From Saccharomycopsis phalli (lineage: Eukaryota > Ascomycota > Saccharomycetes > Ascoideales > Saccharomycopsidaceae), in NCBI GenBank assembly GCA_020342235.1, contig CP073213.1, positions 660,501 to 724,500 on the forward strand: DNA of 64,000 nucleotides, in the 5' to 3' direction. Shown piece after piece: positions 17,624 to 49,147 of the stretch; position 1 is the first letter of the stretch, and each line of letters starts with the position of its first letter. The translations under genes and the position numbers were made by a program. The notes under the pieces were generated by a model. The model was given only the letters and a program-made list of their open reading frames with translations, was not told the origin of the DNA and searched no databases.

Positions 17624-19753
17624 CTAATACTCTGCCAAACGCAACTTTCGGCCGATATCCTTGGTACTAAAGCGCGCCTCCTGAGGCTCTGGACTGATCC
17701 CCCGATCCTTCATTTCGTCCTCACCAACATCAAAGTAGCCATAACCACCAAGCAAGTAGTTCAATGCACTCGACTCGAGCTTCTCAAAACGATTACTACG
17801 ACTACCATTCACCGAGAGCTTCTCGAGGGACTCCGTCACTTGTGAACGCTCCGTTTCGTTGTAGAGGTTTTCAATCTCAATGTAGCACGACTCCAACGCG
17901 TTCAAGTACCGCTGGGTCTGGCGGTGCTTTGTGCACGCACACACGGTGATGGAGTCGGCCTTGATGATGTAGGCAAAGCCAAAGCCATCACTGACGACAG
18001 GACCAAAGCCAAACAAGCGCAAAGCCGGGTTTCCGCAGTTGGACGTCGAAAGAATGGACGTATTGAGAATGTCCCAGCCGGAGTTGGCAAAGATCAGCGG
18101 GAGTTCTTTGGACATTCCTGTACCAAGAGTCGCGTCACTTCCATCACTGCTATAAGCCTCGTCCTCGACATATTTCTTCCAGATGCTAAACAACGCGTAC
18201 AAATGACGGTCGACGCCAAGACCTCCTGCGGCTTCACGGGTACGCTGGCCGTGTTTTTTGCACGCGTCCTTGAGATAAGAGAGCTTCTCCAGCGCCGGGA
18301 TGTTCTCAAAGAACTTGCGCACAAACAAGTTCGACTCGTTGGACACGGTGCGGATGGCCTCGGTGCGTCCATGGAGAAAACCCTTGGTCATTGCTGGCTC
18401 ATAAGTGCATTCGACCTTACCGTAGAGGGCATAGTAAGCTGCCTGGAAGCACATTTGCACAAACGCGTCGGGCGAGCAGCCGACCTTTTTGATAAAGTCG
18501 GAGCCGTAGCCCTTGAACTCCAAGATGGCAAACTCGGTTTGCAGGATCAAGTCCGACAAACGGGTCTCGGCGAAGCGGAGCGACAACGACAACTCTGGGG
18601 TCAAATCCCACTCGAGTTTCTTTGGCGTGGTCACCAAACCACGGATATCTGCTGCCTTTGTGTGTGGGTCTGGCGACTGGGAGATCCAGATTGATGGGGC
18701 GTTGCTGTTGACCAGCCGGGCAAACCGCAAGATCGAGTCGGTGTAAATGTCCGAAACAAACCGCAAAACCGTGTGTCCGTCGACTCCCGTATGCTCGAAG
18801 TTGACTCCGATCTTGCTGTTTTTCGTGACAATGATCTGCAACTTGTCGTACCAACGGTTGGTACACGTCCCGACTTGGACACCCTTGTCGAGTCGCAGAA
18901 TGCCGCACAACATGTTCGTGGCAATCTCCTCCAAAGACTCAACCTCAACGTCGTCCAAACACACCACAAACAACGCAGTGTCGATGATCTTGACAATCTC
19001 CGCATTCACGCATTCCGTGGCACAGAGCCCGCTCCGGATATCCGCCCAGAGCCGCCGGTTCTCCGTGGTGAGAAGCCCAAAGCTGCTCTTGGCAATATCG
19101 CTGAGCGGCGCCTCGCTGCTGTCGGCAATAATCTCCTGGAAATTCGCCTGGAGGTCGTCCTCGCTGAGAATAATGTCGCTCTTCAGATCCATCACATTGA
19201 ACCAGTAAAATTGCGACCGGCTCGCAACCACAATGTGCCCGCTATTCTCATCCGTCCGCATCACACAGCCCTTGTCCGTTGGAATCCGCGCAGTCGCAAA
19301 CAAGTGCCGGTACTGGTACATATCCAACGGCCGGCCCCGGATCTTGTCCGGAGGCAACTCCTGCCGACGAAGCGCACGCACAAACCGCAACGACGAGATT
19401 GTAATCGCAGCAGCACGCTTCACCTGTGATGGTTGCACCGGGTTTGGGTCATCCTCAATGAGAAAAAACGGATTGAGGTTGAGCACCACTGGACTGTCGT
19501 AGTTGAGATACGCGTCGTACCAAAACTCCTCAATGTACAGAGGCTTGTCCTTGGCATACTCCCGGAGCATCCCATCCAACTTGTGTGCCGTCTTACTCTC
19601 GAGAAATTCGTCCACCGCCAACTTTGTTTGCCGGTGCTCCTTCTCGCTCTGGAGAGGCTCCACAACCTCCAAATATCGCCGGCACGTGTCCTCAATCTCG
19701 GGGATTGGAAGCTTCTGAATCTGATCCTGGTATTGGTACGTGGTTTCGACCAT
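17624..19753 (-). CDS. YAT2: Yat2-type carnitine acetyltransferase
   Basis: Transfers acetyl groups between CoA and carnitine, needed when acetyl units move to mitochondria during growth on C2 compounds or fatty acids. The protein has 709 residues from ATG 19753 (upstream TTG rejected). Family features are LNLNPFFLIEDDPNP near 90, the catalytic-histidine region FEHTGVDGHTVLRF near 330, a SLRFAETRLSDL block, and FLHGRTEAIRTVSNES, the carnitine-binding stretch. There is no clear mitochondrial presequence and no C-terminal SKL-type signal (ends LRLAEY), so it is probably cytosolic, as S. cerevisiae Yat2 is thought to be; in Candida the CTN3 group is closest. It is shorter than S. cerevisiae Yat2 (923 aa). 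Confidence 0.88.
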   Translation of the reverse strand: MVETTYQYQDQIQKLPIPEIEDTCRRYLEVVEPLQSEKEHRQTKLAVDEFLESKTAHKLDGMLREYAKDKPLYIEEFWYDAYLNYDSPVVLNLNPFFLIEDDPNPVQPSQVKRAAAITISSLRFVRALRRQELPPDKIRGRPLDMYQYRHLFATARIPTDKGCVMRTDENSGHIVVASRSQFYWFNVMDLKSDIILSEDDLQANFQEIIADSSEAPLSDIAKSSFGLLTTENRRLWADIRSGLCATECVNAEIVKIIDTALFVVCLDDVEVESLEEIATNMLCGILRLDKGVQVGTCTNRWYDKLQIIVTKNSKIGVNFEHTGVDGHTVLRFVSDIYTDSILRFARLVNSNAPSIWISQSPDPHTKAADIRGLVTTPKKLEWDLTPELSLSLRFAETRLSDLILQTEFAILEFKGYGSDFIKKVGCSPDAFVQMCFQAAYYALYGKVECTYEPAMTKGFLHGRTEAIRTVSNESNLFVRKFFENIPALEKLSYLKDACKKHGQRTREAAGGLGVDRHLYALFSIWKKYVEDEAYSSDGSDATLGTGMSKELPLIFANSGWDILNTSILSTSNCGNPALRLFGFGPVVSDGFGFAYIIKADSITVCACTKHRQTQRYLNALESCYIEIENLYNETERSQVTESLEKLSVNGSRSNRFEKLESSALNYLLGGYGYFDVGEDEMKDRGISPEPQEARFSTKDIGRKLRLAEY

Positions 19754-20117
19754 GGTTGCTCTTTTTGAAATGCACACCTCCAACTATATATATACTCAAA
19801 AATCGCAATGCATCATCCAATGACGTGCATGAGATGCCCCACAGTCCTCGCGCTCCAAACCACGGCTCCCAAAAATAATATACATGGTAAAATATCCTCA
19901 TTAGAAAATGGCTATTTGTTTATATTTCTCATCAACACAATCTTCTCAAGGCCACTGGATTTCCGTGTTTTCTTAGCCGGCTCCCGTCCGGAGCAGCGGA
20001 CTAGTGTCACTATTCCGCTTCACCGTGCCGCCGGACGCACGTGATGATCACCGCAATTTTCCGAGTTTTTTTTTTGTCGCAGTCTTTTATACTGCACTTA
20101 CGAAAAAATTCCGTGTT
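19754..20117. promoter_or_regulatory. Divergent spacer YAT2 / tRNA-Ala
   Basis: 364 bp without a gene. It contains the YAT2 promoter, CACGTG at 20038-20043, a T run (20068-20077) and TTTTATACT at 20083-20091, about 30 bp before the tRNA. Confidence 0.45.
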
Positions 20118-20190
20118 GGGCGTGTGGCGTAGTTGGTAGCGCGCTCCCCTTGCAAGGGAGAGGTCTTGGGTTCGATTCCCAACTCGTCCA
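20118..20190 (+). tRNA. tRNA-Ala (anticodon TGC)
   Basis: A 73-nt cloverleaf with acceptor GGGCGTG/CTCGTCC including the alanine identity pair G3-U70, D-arm GCGTAGTTGGTAGCGC, anticodon stem CTCCC/GGGAG with loop CTTGCAA, and T-arm TTGGG-TTCGATT-CCCAA, discriminator A. One U-U mismatch in the acceptor stem is also present in the remembered S. cerevisiae tRNA-Ala. There is no intron. The next gene's ATG is only 25 bp beyond its 3' end. Confidence 0.97.
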
Positions 20191-20194
20191 TATC

Positions 20195-20200
20195 TTTTTT
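20195..20200 (+). terminator. Pol III terminator of tRNA-Ala
   Basis: T6 run five bases after the tRNA; a second T5 run lies at 20206-20210. Both lie within the 25-bp gap before the NPY1 start. Confidence 0.7.
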
Positions 20201-20215
20201 GTTCCTTTTTATACC

Positions 20216-21460
20216 ATGAACAGAGCAGTGTCAGAGTCGATATTCTTTGGCATGAGGGCCTTGGACCGGTTCTCGTTTCTTCGCGGGGACCGAGCATTTC
20301 TTCATGAAGTCGCCACGTTTCCTTATACAAAGTTGGTGTTTTTCAACCGCACCCAGCCGGTGTTGGTGGAGCGTCCCAACTTGGAGCTCAGGCTCTTTCG
20401 AAGCAACGTGGCGGCGATTTCGGACAAATTTAAGGACTATCTAGGGGCATGGGCTCGGGAAGAGAAGAAATACAGCAATCCTGTTACGTTTCTTGGCATG
20501 GATCGGAAGCGAAACGGGCAAGAGTTGTGTAGTGAAGTGAGTCGCAATGAGCATGTGGACCAAGAAACACTCGTATATAAACTGTACCGAGGCACTCCCT
20601 ATGTCGCGGTGGATATTACAGACAGCGACTTTTTGCACCAAGAAGTGAAACGGCTACTTTTAGCCGACAAGGTTGATCTTGAGCGAGTGTACAATATGGA
20701 CCCTGAAAAAACGCGAGGAGTGTACTTGGACCACCTTACGTGGCTCAACAAGAAGGACGCGTCGGTATTTTGCCAGGGTAAAATTTACCTTGACTGGCTC
20801 TCCAAGAACAAGTTTTGCTCGGGATGTGGGCTGAGAAACCTTATTACCAAGGCTGGAACCCAAGTGACATGTTCGTCGCTTGGCAAGTCCAACTGCATTG
20901 TCGCCAACACCAAACGGTCCAATGTGTCGTATCCTCGGACAGATATTGCGGTTATTTCGACAGTGAAGGCCGACGGAAAGATACTTCTTGCCAACAGCAA
21001 GAGATTCCCGCATCCTAACGTGTACTCTTGTGTGGCTGGATTCATGGAGCCAGGCGAGACCATTGAGAGCTGTGTGACACGTGAGATCTGGGAGGAGACC
21101 AATGTGACATCCCACGGTGTAGAAATGGTGCTTACTCAGCCGTGGCCGTATCCTGGAACCGTGATGATTGGTTGTTGTGCGGTGAGTGAGTTTAATGGCC
21201 ATGACGAGGTGATTGCCTTGAAGCACGACCCTGAGTTGCGGGACTGCCAGTGGTTTGATATGGAGTATATTCGCGGGGTATTTATTGAGACCGAGCGGCG
21301 GAACGGGGAGTTGAAACGGGCTTTGCAAGTGGGAGATTTGGAGTTGGTTAAGAGGTTGGAGAAGGAGCAGCGCGAGGCAAGGGTGATTTTGCCGGTGGAG
21401 AATACTGTTTCGTATGAGTTGATTAAGCGGGTGTGTACTGAGAGGGAAGCGGAAAAGTAG
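20216..21460 (+). CDS. NPY1: NADH pyrophosphatase paralogue 1 (Npy1-like, no PTS1, altered Nudix box)
   Basis: Nudix hydrolase that cleaves NADH to NMNH and AMP. It has 414 residues from ATG 20216. The N-terminus (IFFGMRALDRFSFLRGD) aligns with Npy1 starts, so this ATG is right. A zinc ribbon starts at CSGCG. The Nudix box is at residues 275-297 (GFMEPGE...REIWEETNV); the usual final Gly is Asn296. The NADH-specific QPWPYP array follows. It ends TEREAEK and lacks the SKL signal seen in the other paralogue at 34.3 kb. The tRNA-Ala gene ends 25 bp upstream, so the mRNA leader must be extremely short or pass through the tRNA. A cytosolic or specialised role is an inference. Confidence 0.9.
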   Translation: MNRAVSESIFFGMRALDRFSFLRGDRAFLHEVATFPYTKLVFFNRTQPVLVERPNLELRLFRSNVAAISDKFKDYLGAWAREEKKYSNPVTFLGMDRKRNGQELCSEVSRNEHVDQETLVYKLYRGTPYVAVDITDSDFLHQEVKRLLLADKVDLERVYNMDPEKTRGVYLDHLTWLNKKDASVFCQGKIYLDWLSKNKFCSGCGLRNLITKAGTQVTCSSLGKSNCIVANTKRSNVSYPRTDIAVISTVKADGKILLANSKRFPHPNVYSCVAGFMEPGETIESCVTREIWEETNVTSHGVEMVLTQPWPYPGTVMIGCCAVSEFNGHDEVIALKHDPELRDCQWFDMEYIRGVFIETERRNGELKRALQVGDLELVKRLEKEQREARVILPVENTVSYELIKRVCTEREAEK

Positions 21461-34341: not shown

Positions 34342-35400
34342 ATGGATCCCGTATATTTTGGGCAAGAGTCCATCAACAGAGTATCCTTCCTAAGAGAGGA
34401 CTCGCAGTTTATTAACGAGGCAGCACGGTTTGCCCACACTAAAATTATTTTAATTGAAGATGGCTCTCCCGCAGCCACGACTAATGGCCCGCAACCCGCA
34501 CTCTTGAGAATTCCACTCAACCAGAGTACCGTATTGCGAGATTTGTTGGCCAAATGGGCCACTGCAAACCACGAAAAGGCAGCAGAGTTGCGCACGTTCC
34601 CGTCCATCGTGTTTCTTGGGTTGTTGCCCGAGGACATTGACTTCTCGTACAAGGCCTATTCGGGAACCCCATATTTCATTGTCGATACCAAGACCCTCGA
34701 CTTGGACGTAAAGTACGAGCTTTTGGAGTCCCGGGGAAAGTTCTTCAAGTTGTCCAACACCGACGCGTCGCTCTTTGGATATGGTAAGATGTTTATTGAC
34801 TGGTTAAACAAGTACAACTTCTGTCCTACCTGCGGCACCGGCACCATCAAGATCAATGCTGGGACAAAGCTCTACTGCCGCAACGAGGAAAAAAACAGCG
34901 ACGGCCTGTTCAAATGCCTGAGCAAAAACATGCTGGTGTCCAATATCCAGTTTCCGCGCACGGATCCCGTGTGTATTATCGCAGTGGTGAACCGCAAGCA
35001 CAACAAGATTCTCTTGGCGAACCACAAGCGGTCGCCAATCAAAAACATGTACACATGTGTTGCCGGGTTCATGGAGCCGGGTGAGACCATCGAGGACTGT
35101 TGTAAGCGTGAAGTCTGGGAGGAAACCGGGGTCAAGTGCTCGTCGATCACGATCCACTCGTCACAGCCATGGCCTTATCCAGTGAACTTGATGATTGGGT
35201 GTATTGGGTTTGTTGATTTCAACGGTGAGAATGAGACCATTGACCTTGGCCACGATCCGGAATTGAATGATGCAAAGTGGTTTGATATTGACCAGTTGCG
35301 TGCTACAATAGAGACGCCATCGGATGTGGTGATTCCACCGGCCAGTGCGATTGCAAATAAGTTGATTATGTCGGTGGTTAACAATGAGTCGAAGTTGTAG
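34342..35400 (+). CDS. NPY1: NADH pyrophosphatase paralogue 2 (canonical Npy1, peroxisomal)
   Basis: Nudix hydrolase of NADH, likely in peroxisomes. It has 352 residues from ATG 34342 (TTG just upstream ignored). N-terminus VYFGQESINRVSFLRED, zinc ribbon CPTCG...C...C, Nudix box at 242-264 (GFMEPGE...REVWEETGV) with the final Gly intact, and QPWPYP. It ends in SKL, a type 1 peroxisomal signal, matching S. cerevisiae Npy1 (SHL). It lies 8-10 kb from ALG2 and SGF73; in S. cerevisiae NPY1, SGF73 and ALG2 are adjacent (YGL067W-YGL065C), so this copy sits in the ancestral neighbourhood. Confidence 0.95.
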   Translation: MDPVYFGQESINRVSFLREDSQFINEAARFAHTKIILIEDGSPAATTNGPQPALLRIPLNQSTVLRDLLAKWATANHEKAAELRTFPSIVFLGLLPEDIDFSYKAYSGTPYFIVDTKTLDLDVKYELLESRGKFFKLSNTDASLFGYGKMFIDWLNKYNFCPTCGTGTIKINAGTKLYCRNEEKNSDGLFKCLSKNMLVSNIQFPRTDPVCIIAVVNRKHNKILLANHKRSPIKNMYTCVAGFMEPGETIEDCCKREVWEETGVKCSSITIHSSQPWPYPVNLMIGCIGFVDFNGENETIDLGHDPELNDAKWFDIDQLRATIETPSDVVIPPASAIANKLIMSVVNNESKL

Positions 35401-47752: not shown

Positions 47753-49009
47753 TTATACATTCGTCAGAACCCTAGACTTCTTCACCACAGGCTCGTCATC
47801 ATCATCCTCGTAGCTAGGGACATCAACCTTGTGCCGTTTGTTGTGTCGTGTCGCTGCCAATTTCCGTTCCTCGCCACGCTGGATCCAGTTTTTCTCAATC
47901 TGCGACGAAACCGCACGCAATTCGGCTTCACTAACCCCATCGTTGATCGAGTGCAACACCTTGCGGACCACTGAGATGTGATTTCCATTGACCTTATCGT
48001 CACGGAATCGGAGCATCTCCCACTCTCCGCTCAGAGTACGCCGCACTTCGGCAATGCGCATGTTCAACGGCTGTTTCAATGCCTTCAACTGCTCCCAGTC
48101 ATCGTTGGAAAGAGTCAACTGGCCAAAGTAGTCATATTTTTTCTGGCCGCCCCATGTATGCAACTCGATCACGGGTTTTGAATCATAGTCCGTGTACTCT
48201 TCGTCGCCGTCCTTGTACATTTTGAACTTGAGTCGGATCTGGAAGTCAATCGTGTTTTCCTCCGCAGGCTTCCACTTGAGCAACGTGTGGTCCGTTCCAA
48301 ACTCGTATGGCGTCTCGCAACACGTGAAAATGAGCCCGTCGCTGACATGTGGAAGATCTGGAAGCAGCTCAAGCACGCGTGGGATCCGGAAACACGTCGA
48401 CATTTTTTTAAAGCTCACTTTAAACGGAAAGTGTCGCGTCTCCTCTGGAAACTTGTGCCGGTAGTAAAGGTACGGCTCGATTAATCCCTGAATATGTGCA
48501 AGTCGCTTGTCGGCAGGACGTGTCACATACGATACGTTGTTCACGGCCAACAAATCAAACACCAAGTACCGGAGTTCTCTTCCACTACCATCAGGCTTCT
48601 TATCAAGAACCAACTCGCCGTCTACCAACGTCCCATTGTGTGGCTGGTTGAGGGCTTCTTTGCTGACAGGAAAATGGATGTTGGGAATCCGATAAAACTC
48701 GTTTGACCGCGTCATTAAAAACACGCCCTCCTCATACGACCCGTCGGGGAACCGGTCTGCCAACACAAGCATCAAACACCGGAGTCCATCAGACTTTTCG
48801 CACACATAATAGTCATGCTGAAGTAACCGTTCTTGGATATGCCGGCGCTCAAAACTCGTAGGCTGGCTTCCGGGGAAATCTATTTTCTTTTTTATACCCA
48901 AAATTTGCACAATATTCCGCCTCAAATCCTGCGCAATTGCCTCTGGCTGAAGCTCACCCGGTATCTGGGGGAATTCTCTTTCGTCAAGTATCATGAATTG
49001 CTTGTGCAT
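47753..49009 (-). CDS. CEG1: mRNA guanylyltransferase (capping enzyme alpha subunit)
   Basis: Transfers GMP to the 5' diphosphate end of nascent mRNA in the nucleus. From the first ATG (49009) it has 418 residues. The ATG at 48994 (MILDEREFPQIPG) aligns with the start of Candida Cgt1 and is the likelier start. The active-site motif is CEKSDGLR (Lys nucleophile) near residue 70, with DGELVLDKK, SDGLIFTCCETPY, LLKWKP and the C-terminal OB-fold segment EMLRFRDDKVNGNH. It ends in an acidic patch and Lys/Arg. The tRNA-Thr gene is on the same strand, ending 66 bp upstream of 49009, with CACGTG at 49040-49045 in the gap. Confidence 0.95.
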   Translation of the reverse strand: MHKQFMILDEREFPQIPGELQPEAIAQDLRRNIVQILGIKKKIDFPGSQPTSFERRHIQERLLQHDYYVCEKSDGLRCLMLVLADRFPDGSYEEGVFLMTRSNEFYRIPNIHFPVSKEALNQPHNGTLVDGELVLDKKPDGSGRELRYLVFDLLAVNNVSYVTRPADKRLAHIQGLIEPYLYYRHKFPEETRHFPFKVSFKKMSTCFRIPRVLELLPDLPHVSDGLIFTCCETPYEFGTDHTLLKWKPAEENTIDFQIRLKFKMYKDGDEEYTDYDSKPVIELHTWGGQKKYDYFGQLTLSNDDWEQLKALKQPLNMRIAEVRRTLSGEWEMLRFRDDKVNGNHISVVRKVLHSINDGVSEAELRAVSSQIEKNWIQRGEERKLAATRHNKRHKVDVPSYEDDDDEPVVKKSRVLTNV

Positions 49010-49039
49010 TAGCCGTGGCTGAAAAAAGTAGTGTTCAAT

Positions 49040-49045
49040 CACGTG
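49040..49045. promoter_or_regulatory. CACGTG box between tRNA-Thr and CEG1
   Basis: TCACGTG-type box 31 bp upstream of the first CEG1 ATG, inside the 66-bp gap to the tRNA gene. Confidence 0.4.
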
Positions 49046-49066
49046 CCAATTGAACGCGATTAAAAC

Positions 49067-49072
49067 AAAAAA
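49067..49072 (-). terminator. Pol III terminator of tRNA-Thr
   Basis: T6 run (minus strand) four bases after the tRNA 3' end. Confidence 0.7.
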
Positions 49073-49075
49073 TAC

Positions 49076-49147
49076 TGCCCGTTACCAGAATTGAACTAGT
49101 GACCTTTGCATTACAAGTGCAACGCTCTACCACTAAGCTAAACGGGC
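49076..49147 (-). tRNA. tRNA-Thr (anticodon TGT)
   Basis: 72-nt cloverleaf: acceptor GCCCGTT/AACGGGC fully paired, D-arm GCTTAGTGGTAGAGC, anticodon stem TTGCA/TGCAA with loop CTTGTAA, T-arm ACTAG-TTCAATT-CTGGT (one G-U), discriminator A. No intron. The B box is TTCAATT rather than TTCGATT. Confidence 0.96.

Follow-up and report, generated by a model that had tools for sequence, protein, structure and literature searches.

Tight spacing between an RNA polymerase III (Pol III) gene and an mRNA gene has been described in the yeast Saccharomyces cerevisiae, where a Pol III complex restricts the mRNA start of ATG31, TRM12, and FAR3 (PMC4228148). The Pol III sites involved include the tRNA genes tV(UAC)D upstream of ATG31 and tS(AGA)M upstream of TRM12, as well as the tRNA relict ETC9 upstream of TIM21 (PMC4228148). 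B-box mutation of the tRNA genes at FAR3 and TRM12, or of the relict at TIM21, leads to 5'-extended mRNAs, and the B-box mutants at TRM12 have less protein (PMC4228148). In tfc6 mutants, the extended TRM12 RNA is slight and Trm12 protein is unchanged. For ATG31, an earlier study described in the same paper saw read-through RNA together with a low protein level (PMC4228148). In the portions of that report available to us, mainly local shifts of transcript start and end points are described, and direct regulation of neighboring genes by Pol III complexes is judged unlikely by its authors (PMC4228148). A different outcome is known from plants, in which dicistronic tRNA-mRNA transcripts with a median spacing of 133 bp have been detected by RNA-seq and RT-PCR, according to the available part of the study (PMC8166872).

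We analyzed a stretch of 64,000 nucleotides from Saccharomycopsis phalli (the window) together with the genome to which it belongs (G000; 14.15 Mb in 8 contigs). A tRNA-Ala(TGC) gene at 20118-20190 is followed by an NPY1-like open reading frame (ORF) at 20216-21460, both on the + strand, with a gap of only 25 bp between them (20191-20215). This arrangement had been noted in a preliminary description of the locus, and ARAGORN, Rfam, and the intact ORF agree on it. The TATA-like sequence that the same description had placed at 20083 is indeed present, but its actual position is 20085-20093. The features of the locus are as follows.

17624..19753, - strand: carnitine acyltransferase family gene, 709 aa, the divergent neighbor (ORF; PF00755, E = 4e-187)
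20085..20093, + strand: TTTTATACT, TATA-like element (position; genome-wide pile-up of TRTA)
20118..20190, + strand: tRNA-Ala(TGC) gene (ARAGORN; Rfam RF00005)
20125..20136, + strand: A box, TGGCGTAGTTGG (read from the sequence)
20169..20179, + strand: B box, GGTTCGATTCC (pattern match at G000:C2:680669-680679)
20195..20200, + strand: T6, Pol III terminator (position and length typical for the genome)
20206..20210, + strand: T5, possible back-up Pol III terminator (sequence)
20216..21460, + strand: NPY1-like NUDIX gene (copy A, or NPY1-A), 414 aa (ORF; PF00293; NUDT12 match)
20252..20254, + strand: second in-frame ATG (Met13), which might be reached by leaky scanning from a very short leader

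The A box was assigned by its consensus. Between the ATG of the carnitine acyltransferase gene and the start of the tRNA gene lie 364 bp of divergent intergenic DNA. This region carries an inverted GCGGA-N13-TCCGC at 19996-20018, which occurs once in the window, and the tRNA gene would separate this possible activator site from NPY1.

The tRNA-Ala gene is intact, with boxes and terminator present directly upstream of NPY1-A. ARAGORN reports it at 20117-20191 and Rfam RF00005 at 20118-20190 (66.6 bits), in both cases on the + strand. Because it is identical to two copies elsewhere in the genome (C1:389950 and C1:1997085), it looks like a working gene.

To place these signals in context, we used a sample of 131 tRNA genes from the genome, which is not the whole set. 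Candidate scoring took in 63 of 806 candidates and covered all 64 matches. The B-box pattern places considered were 100 of 149, extending up to contig C5, and C1:2302666, C1:2304028, and C2:23674/23675 were left out. For 43 genes, the start was shifted by one base to that of the mature tRNA by the U8 rule. Two genes with little upstream DNA, 40 with LTR-like sequence upstream (recognized by words chosen by eye), and 5 second members of tRNA-Met/tRNA-Arg pairs were then removed from the 131 to leave 84 genes for the examination of TRTA. Among the 129 tRNA genes with enough upstream DNA (L003-L154), the 40 LTR-like ends fall into several TTACA-terminated families and are mostly separated from the tRNA by 12-16 bp; the focal gene does not have one. 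This pattern suggests Ty3-like elements that target Pol III starts.

A TATA-like element about 30 bp upstream of a Pol III gene can be read as a TFIIIB site, and the TATA of TTTTATACT is located at -30 to -27 relative to the tRNA start. Among the 84 genes kept, none of which has an LTR-like end upstream, 33 carry a TRTA entirely inside -36 to -27, or 32 of 83 once the focal gene is taken out. The 39 other 10-bp windows of the same genes average 8.1 and never exceed 16. The element is thus common and not universal, as 51 of the 84 genes have no TRTA in this interval. Uncorrected tRNA starts again gave 33 of 84, versus a mean of 7.3 elsewhere, and it is the corrected start that brings the focal TATA inside the interval, since the uncorrected ARAGORN start at 20117 leaves it 1 base outside. 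Therefore, the focal TATA is most likely the TFIIIB element of the tRNA gene itself. A Pol II TATA was rejected as the simplest reading because the element sits where the tRNA genes of this genome carry TRTA. It could additionally serve Pol II; nothing requires that. The preliminary description had used the TATA as evidence that Pol II initiates inside the tRNA gene, an argument that loses its force because a position near -30 is common to tRNA genes here and a Pol II reading is unneeded.

The termination signals are likewise ordinary for this genome. The T6 run begins 5 bp downstream of the tRNA, and the T5 run ends 5 bp before the ATG. A first run of at least five T residues occurs within 60 bp of the tRNA for 73 of 76 genes. 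Counted from the ARAGORN end, its median offset is 3, which is also the offset of the focal T6, and 30 genes have a T5 and 29 a T6 as this first run. Two further T5 runs are found inside the NPY1-A ORF. Pol III transcripts should stop before NPY1.

The geometry of the locus depends on where translation begins. The ORF at 20216-21460 is open over 414 codons, and its product carries a NUDIX domain (PF00293, E = 1.1e-14) and matches the solved structure of NUDT12 (E = 1.4e-32). The zinc ribbon PF09297 yielded no Pfam match in copy A at an E value of 0.001, yet four Cys residues are present in the region, and several relatives likewise have no precomputed PF09297 match. The focal N-terminus, MNRAVSESIFFG, is close to MSTAVTFFG of S. 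cerevisiae Npy1 (P0121), and ESIFFG is kept by P0002, the nearest member of its clade. These similarities make translation from Met1 likely. FFG-like residues precede the motif in most of the relatives aligned, and P0002 has Val in place of Met13 of copy A; P0003 starts late and is uninformative on the N-terminus. The preliminary description held that the start was fixed by homology. This is correct for residues 7-12, whereas the case for residue 1 is fair and not proven, such that a start at 20216 is likely and well supported, short of proof. If translation does begin at 20216, then, as was originally argued, three places are left for the mRNA start: the gap, the tRNA gene itself, or the DNA upstream of the tRNA gene.

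P0002 has 37 residues before ESIFFG versus 6 in copy A. In their make-up, the 31 additional residues resemble a mitochondrial leader, and a rearrangement beside the tRNA may have cut off this leader from copy A. Their presence also suggests that the species carrying P0002 does not have the 25-bp layout, unless an intron intervenes. The tRNA gene occupies the place where the extra codons of P0002 would be. An in-frame upstream extension of copy A was considered and rejected: the frame is open from 20048, there is no ATG before 20216, and the residues encoded are, by eye, unlike those of P0002.

Two NPY1 paralogues reside on the + strand of the window, 13 kb apart, at 20216-21460 (copy A) and 34342-35400 (copy B). 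A tree of 38 proteins unites copy A with P0002 and P0003 (100/100) and sets copy B apart; the best named relative of copy B is from Saccharomycopsis crataegensis (45% identity). The C-terminus of copy B is SKL, which is PTS1-like, and that of copy A is AEK. Copy A, P0002, and P0003 have EETN in the Nudix box, at a place where G is found in 136 of 143 proteins (4 were unmatched by the pattern).

The layout is not restricted to NPY1-A. A same-strand ATG ORF of at least 80 codons starts no more than 100 bp from the tRNA 3' end for 10 of the 128 tRNA genes that have a 3' flank of at least 300 bp. Six of these ten ORFs are backed by homology.

NPY1-A: 25 bp from the tRNA (homology)
RIB7: 36 bp (alignment to the solved enzyme 4ha7 begins at residue 1)
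EAF3: 51 bp, or 75 bp if the ninth residue is the start (homology)
DPB4: 66 bp to the homologous start MPPKGWRK, with the ORF itself opening at 21 bp (homology)
CEG1, mRNA capping enzyme, after tRNA-Thr(TGT): 66 bp; 47753-49147 of the window, - strand (homology)
NPP-type phosphodiesterase: 67 bp (homology)

CEG1 forms the second tight tRNA-gene pair in the same window. At the RIB7 locus (G000:C4:1187629; L142), the upstream gene encodes tRNA-Pro(TGG), and a run of 11 T residues ends 4 bp before the ATG. Also within 100 bp, no supporting family was found for an 86-aa ORF after tRNA-Ile, and a coiled-coil ORF after tRNA-Gln had family matches below the cut-off only. We take the ORF at C3:1181409 to be SUB2, the true start of which is presumably about 138 bp further downstream, and we likewise take the genes 96 bp and 121 bp after their tRNAs to be PER1 and ERG10, respectively. 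A gene located 108 bp after its tRNA encodes a Longin domain and is YKT6-like; we presume that it is YKT6.

The 25-bp distance alone shows no excess over chance. For 71 tRNA genes with flanks of at least 1.2 kb, the next ORF of at least 120 codons on the 3' side is on the same strand in 22 cases, and 10 of those 22 (including the focal pair) start within 300 bp. Under a uniform density derived from these 10 neighbors, 0.83 cases are expected with a gap of no more than 25 bp, and 1 is observed, which makes NPY1-A the extreme tail of a smooth distribution. On the 3' side of the same 71 genes, 4 same-strand and no opposite-strand neighbors lie within 100 bp, rising to 6 and still none within 150 bp. 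On the 5' side, there is 1 same-strand neighbor at either limit, and the divergent ones number 0 within 100 bp and 3 within 150 bp. These counts are too low for any claim of strand bias.

The explanation we consider probable is that tRNA-Ala and NPY1-A are two independent, tightly packed genes, with the Pol III complex acting as the 5' boundary of the NPY1 mRNA. What the sequence shows is the layout and its recurrence, undamaged Pol III signals, and where the TATA sits across the genome; where the NPY1 mRNA begins, and that the tRNA gene acts as its boundary, we infer. Pol III would use the A and B boxes of the tRNA-Ala gene, together with the TATA at -30, to transcribe it, and would stop at T6. 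Pol II would make a separate, capped NPY1 mRNA whose 5' end falls in the 25-bp gap or in the tRNA body. The TFIIIB/TFIIIC complex would set the 5' limit by keeping the DNA open and by blocking Pol II arriving from upstream. By analogy with ATG31, FAR3, and TRM12 of S. cerevisiae, the complex on tRNA-Ala should fix the 5' edge of NPY1. The resulting leader would be very short, which leaves room for some initiation at Met13.

Several other explanations were weighed against that of two packed genes. It is unlikely, though conceivable, that the tRNA gene doubles as the NPY1 core promoter, with Pol II starting in the tRNA body opened by TFIIIB and the two polymerases alternating. RIB7, with its 36-bp gap, would then be another example from this genome. 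We are more doubtful of a regulatory switch, also raised in the preliminary description, in which overlap of the Pol II and Pol III initiation complexes makes them mutually exclusive. NPY1 would then go up under conditions that repress Pol III, such as starvation, and down while Pol III is active. A Pol II promoter of the usual kind would not fit into 25 bp, which implies that its factors must overlap the tRNA gene, and RIB7 is subject to the same squeeze. However, nothing found at the locus or in the genome counts points to a switch: the TATA-like element is already accounted for by the tRNA, and the sharing of the layout by unrelated genes argues against a special NPY1 circuit. The S. cerevisiae work, in the portions available, also describes mainly local start and end changes and doubts direct regulation (PMC4228148).

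It is improbable that the NPY1 mRNA begins upstream of the tRNA, which would then be kept in the 5' leader or removed with a spliced leader intron. The 364 bp of divergent intergenic DNA could hold activator sites for such a start, but the tRNA part of the leader folds at -27.5 kcal/mol and should hinder scanning. The extended mRNAs of S. cerevisiae are poorly translated, as far as the available text of that report describes (PMC4228148). An intron carrying the tRNA was rejected, as none of GTATG, GTAAG, GTGAG, TACTAAC, CTAAC, CTGAC, and CTAAT occurs in 19754-20260, although these motifs may not be the consensus of this species; TACTAAC has five sites in the whole window. Equally improbable is a protein made mainly from Met13 (20252), which would require an mRNA start downstream of 20216 or a leader so short that ribosomes skip the first ATG. 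An in-frame ATG does exist at codon 13, and very short leaders favor leaky scanning in human cells, according to the part of the study available (PMC13219423). Against this, ESIFFG just upstream is common to P0002, which has Val in place of Met13, and FFG-like residues occur in most of the relatives aligned. We regard as least credible, and very improbable, the earlier proposal of a joint tRNA-mRNA transcript that is cut by RNase Z at 20190/20191 to release the NPY1 mRNA as its 3' piece. The two genes are adjacent on one strand, as this would require. However, T6 and T5 stand between the tRNA and the ATG, two T5 runs follow within the ORF, the 3' piece made by RNase Z would carry no cap, and a brief literature search found no yeast case. 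Plant joint transcripts keep T stretches downstream of the tRNA, as far as the source describes them, and thus T6 and T5 lower the odds of a joint RNA without excluding it (PMC8166872).

The locus is therefore a case of tight tRNA-protein gene packing with a known precedent, and NPY1-A is the tightest among several in this genome. If Pol II has to start inside an active tRNA gene or no more than 25 bp away from it, then such loci test how far both machineries can share DNA, and NPY1-A and RIB7 offer a clean pair for this comparison within one genome.

Copy A has a NUDIX domain in common with the NADH pyrophosphatases Npy1 of yeast and NUDT12 of animals. It differs from them in its separate clade, its lack of a PTS1-like end, and its EETN in place of EETG. 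The plant dicistronic loci resemble NPY1-A in that a tRNA gene is close to a protein gene and Pol III signals are intact; their joint products were detected as RNA in the work as available to us, whereas nothing at our locus shows a joint RNA (PMC8166872). Likewise, the boundary effect in S. cerevisiae was seen in transcripts (PMC4228148), and that at NPY1-A is predicted from the DNA sequence. The ATG31, TRM12, FAR3, and TIM21 loci, as presented in the available portions of that report, have in common with NPY1-A that a Pol III site precedes a gene transcribed by Pol II. However, FAR3 has about 200 bp and TIM21 about 330 bp of room, and thus the 25-bp gap at NPY1-A may behave differently (PMC4228148).
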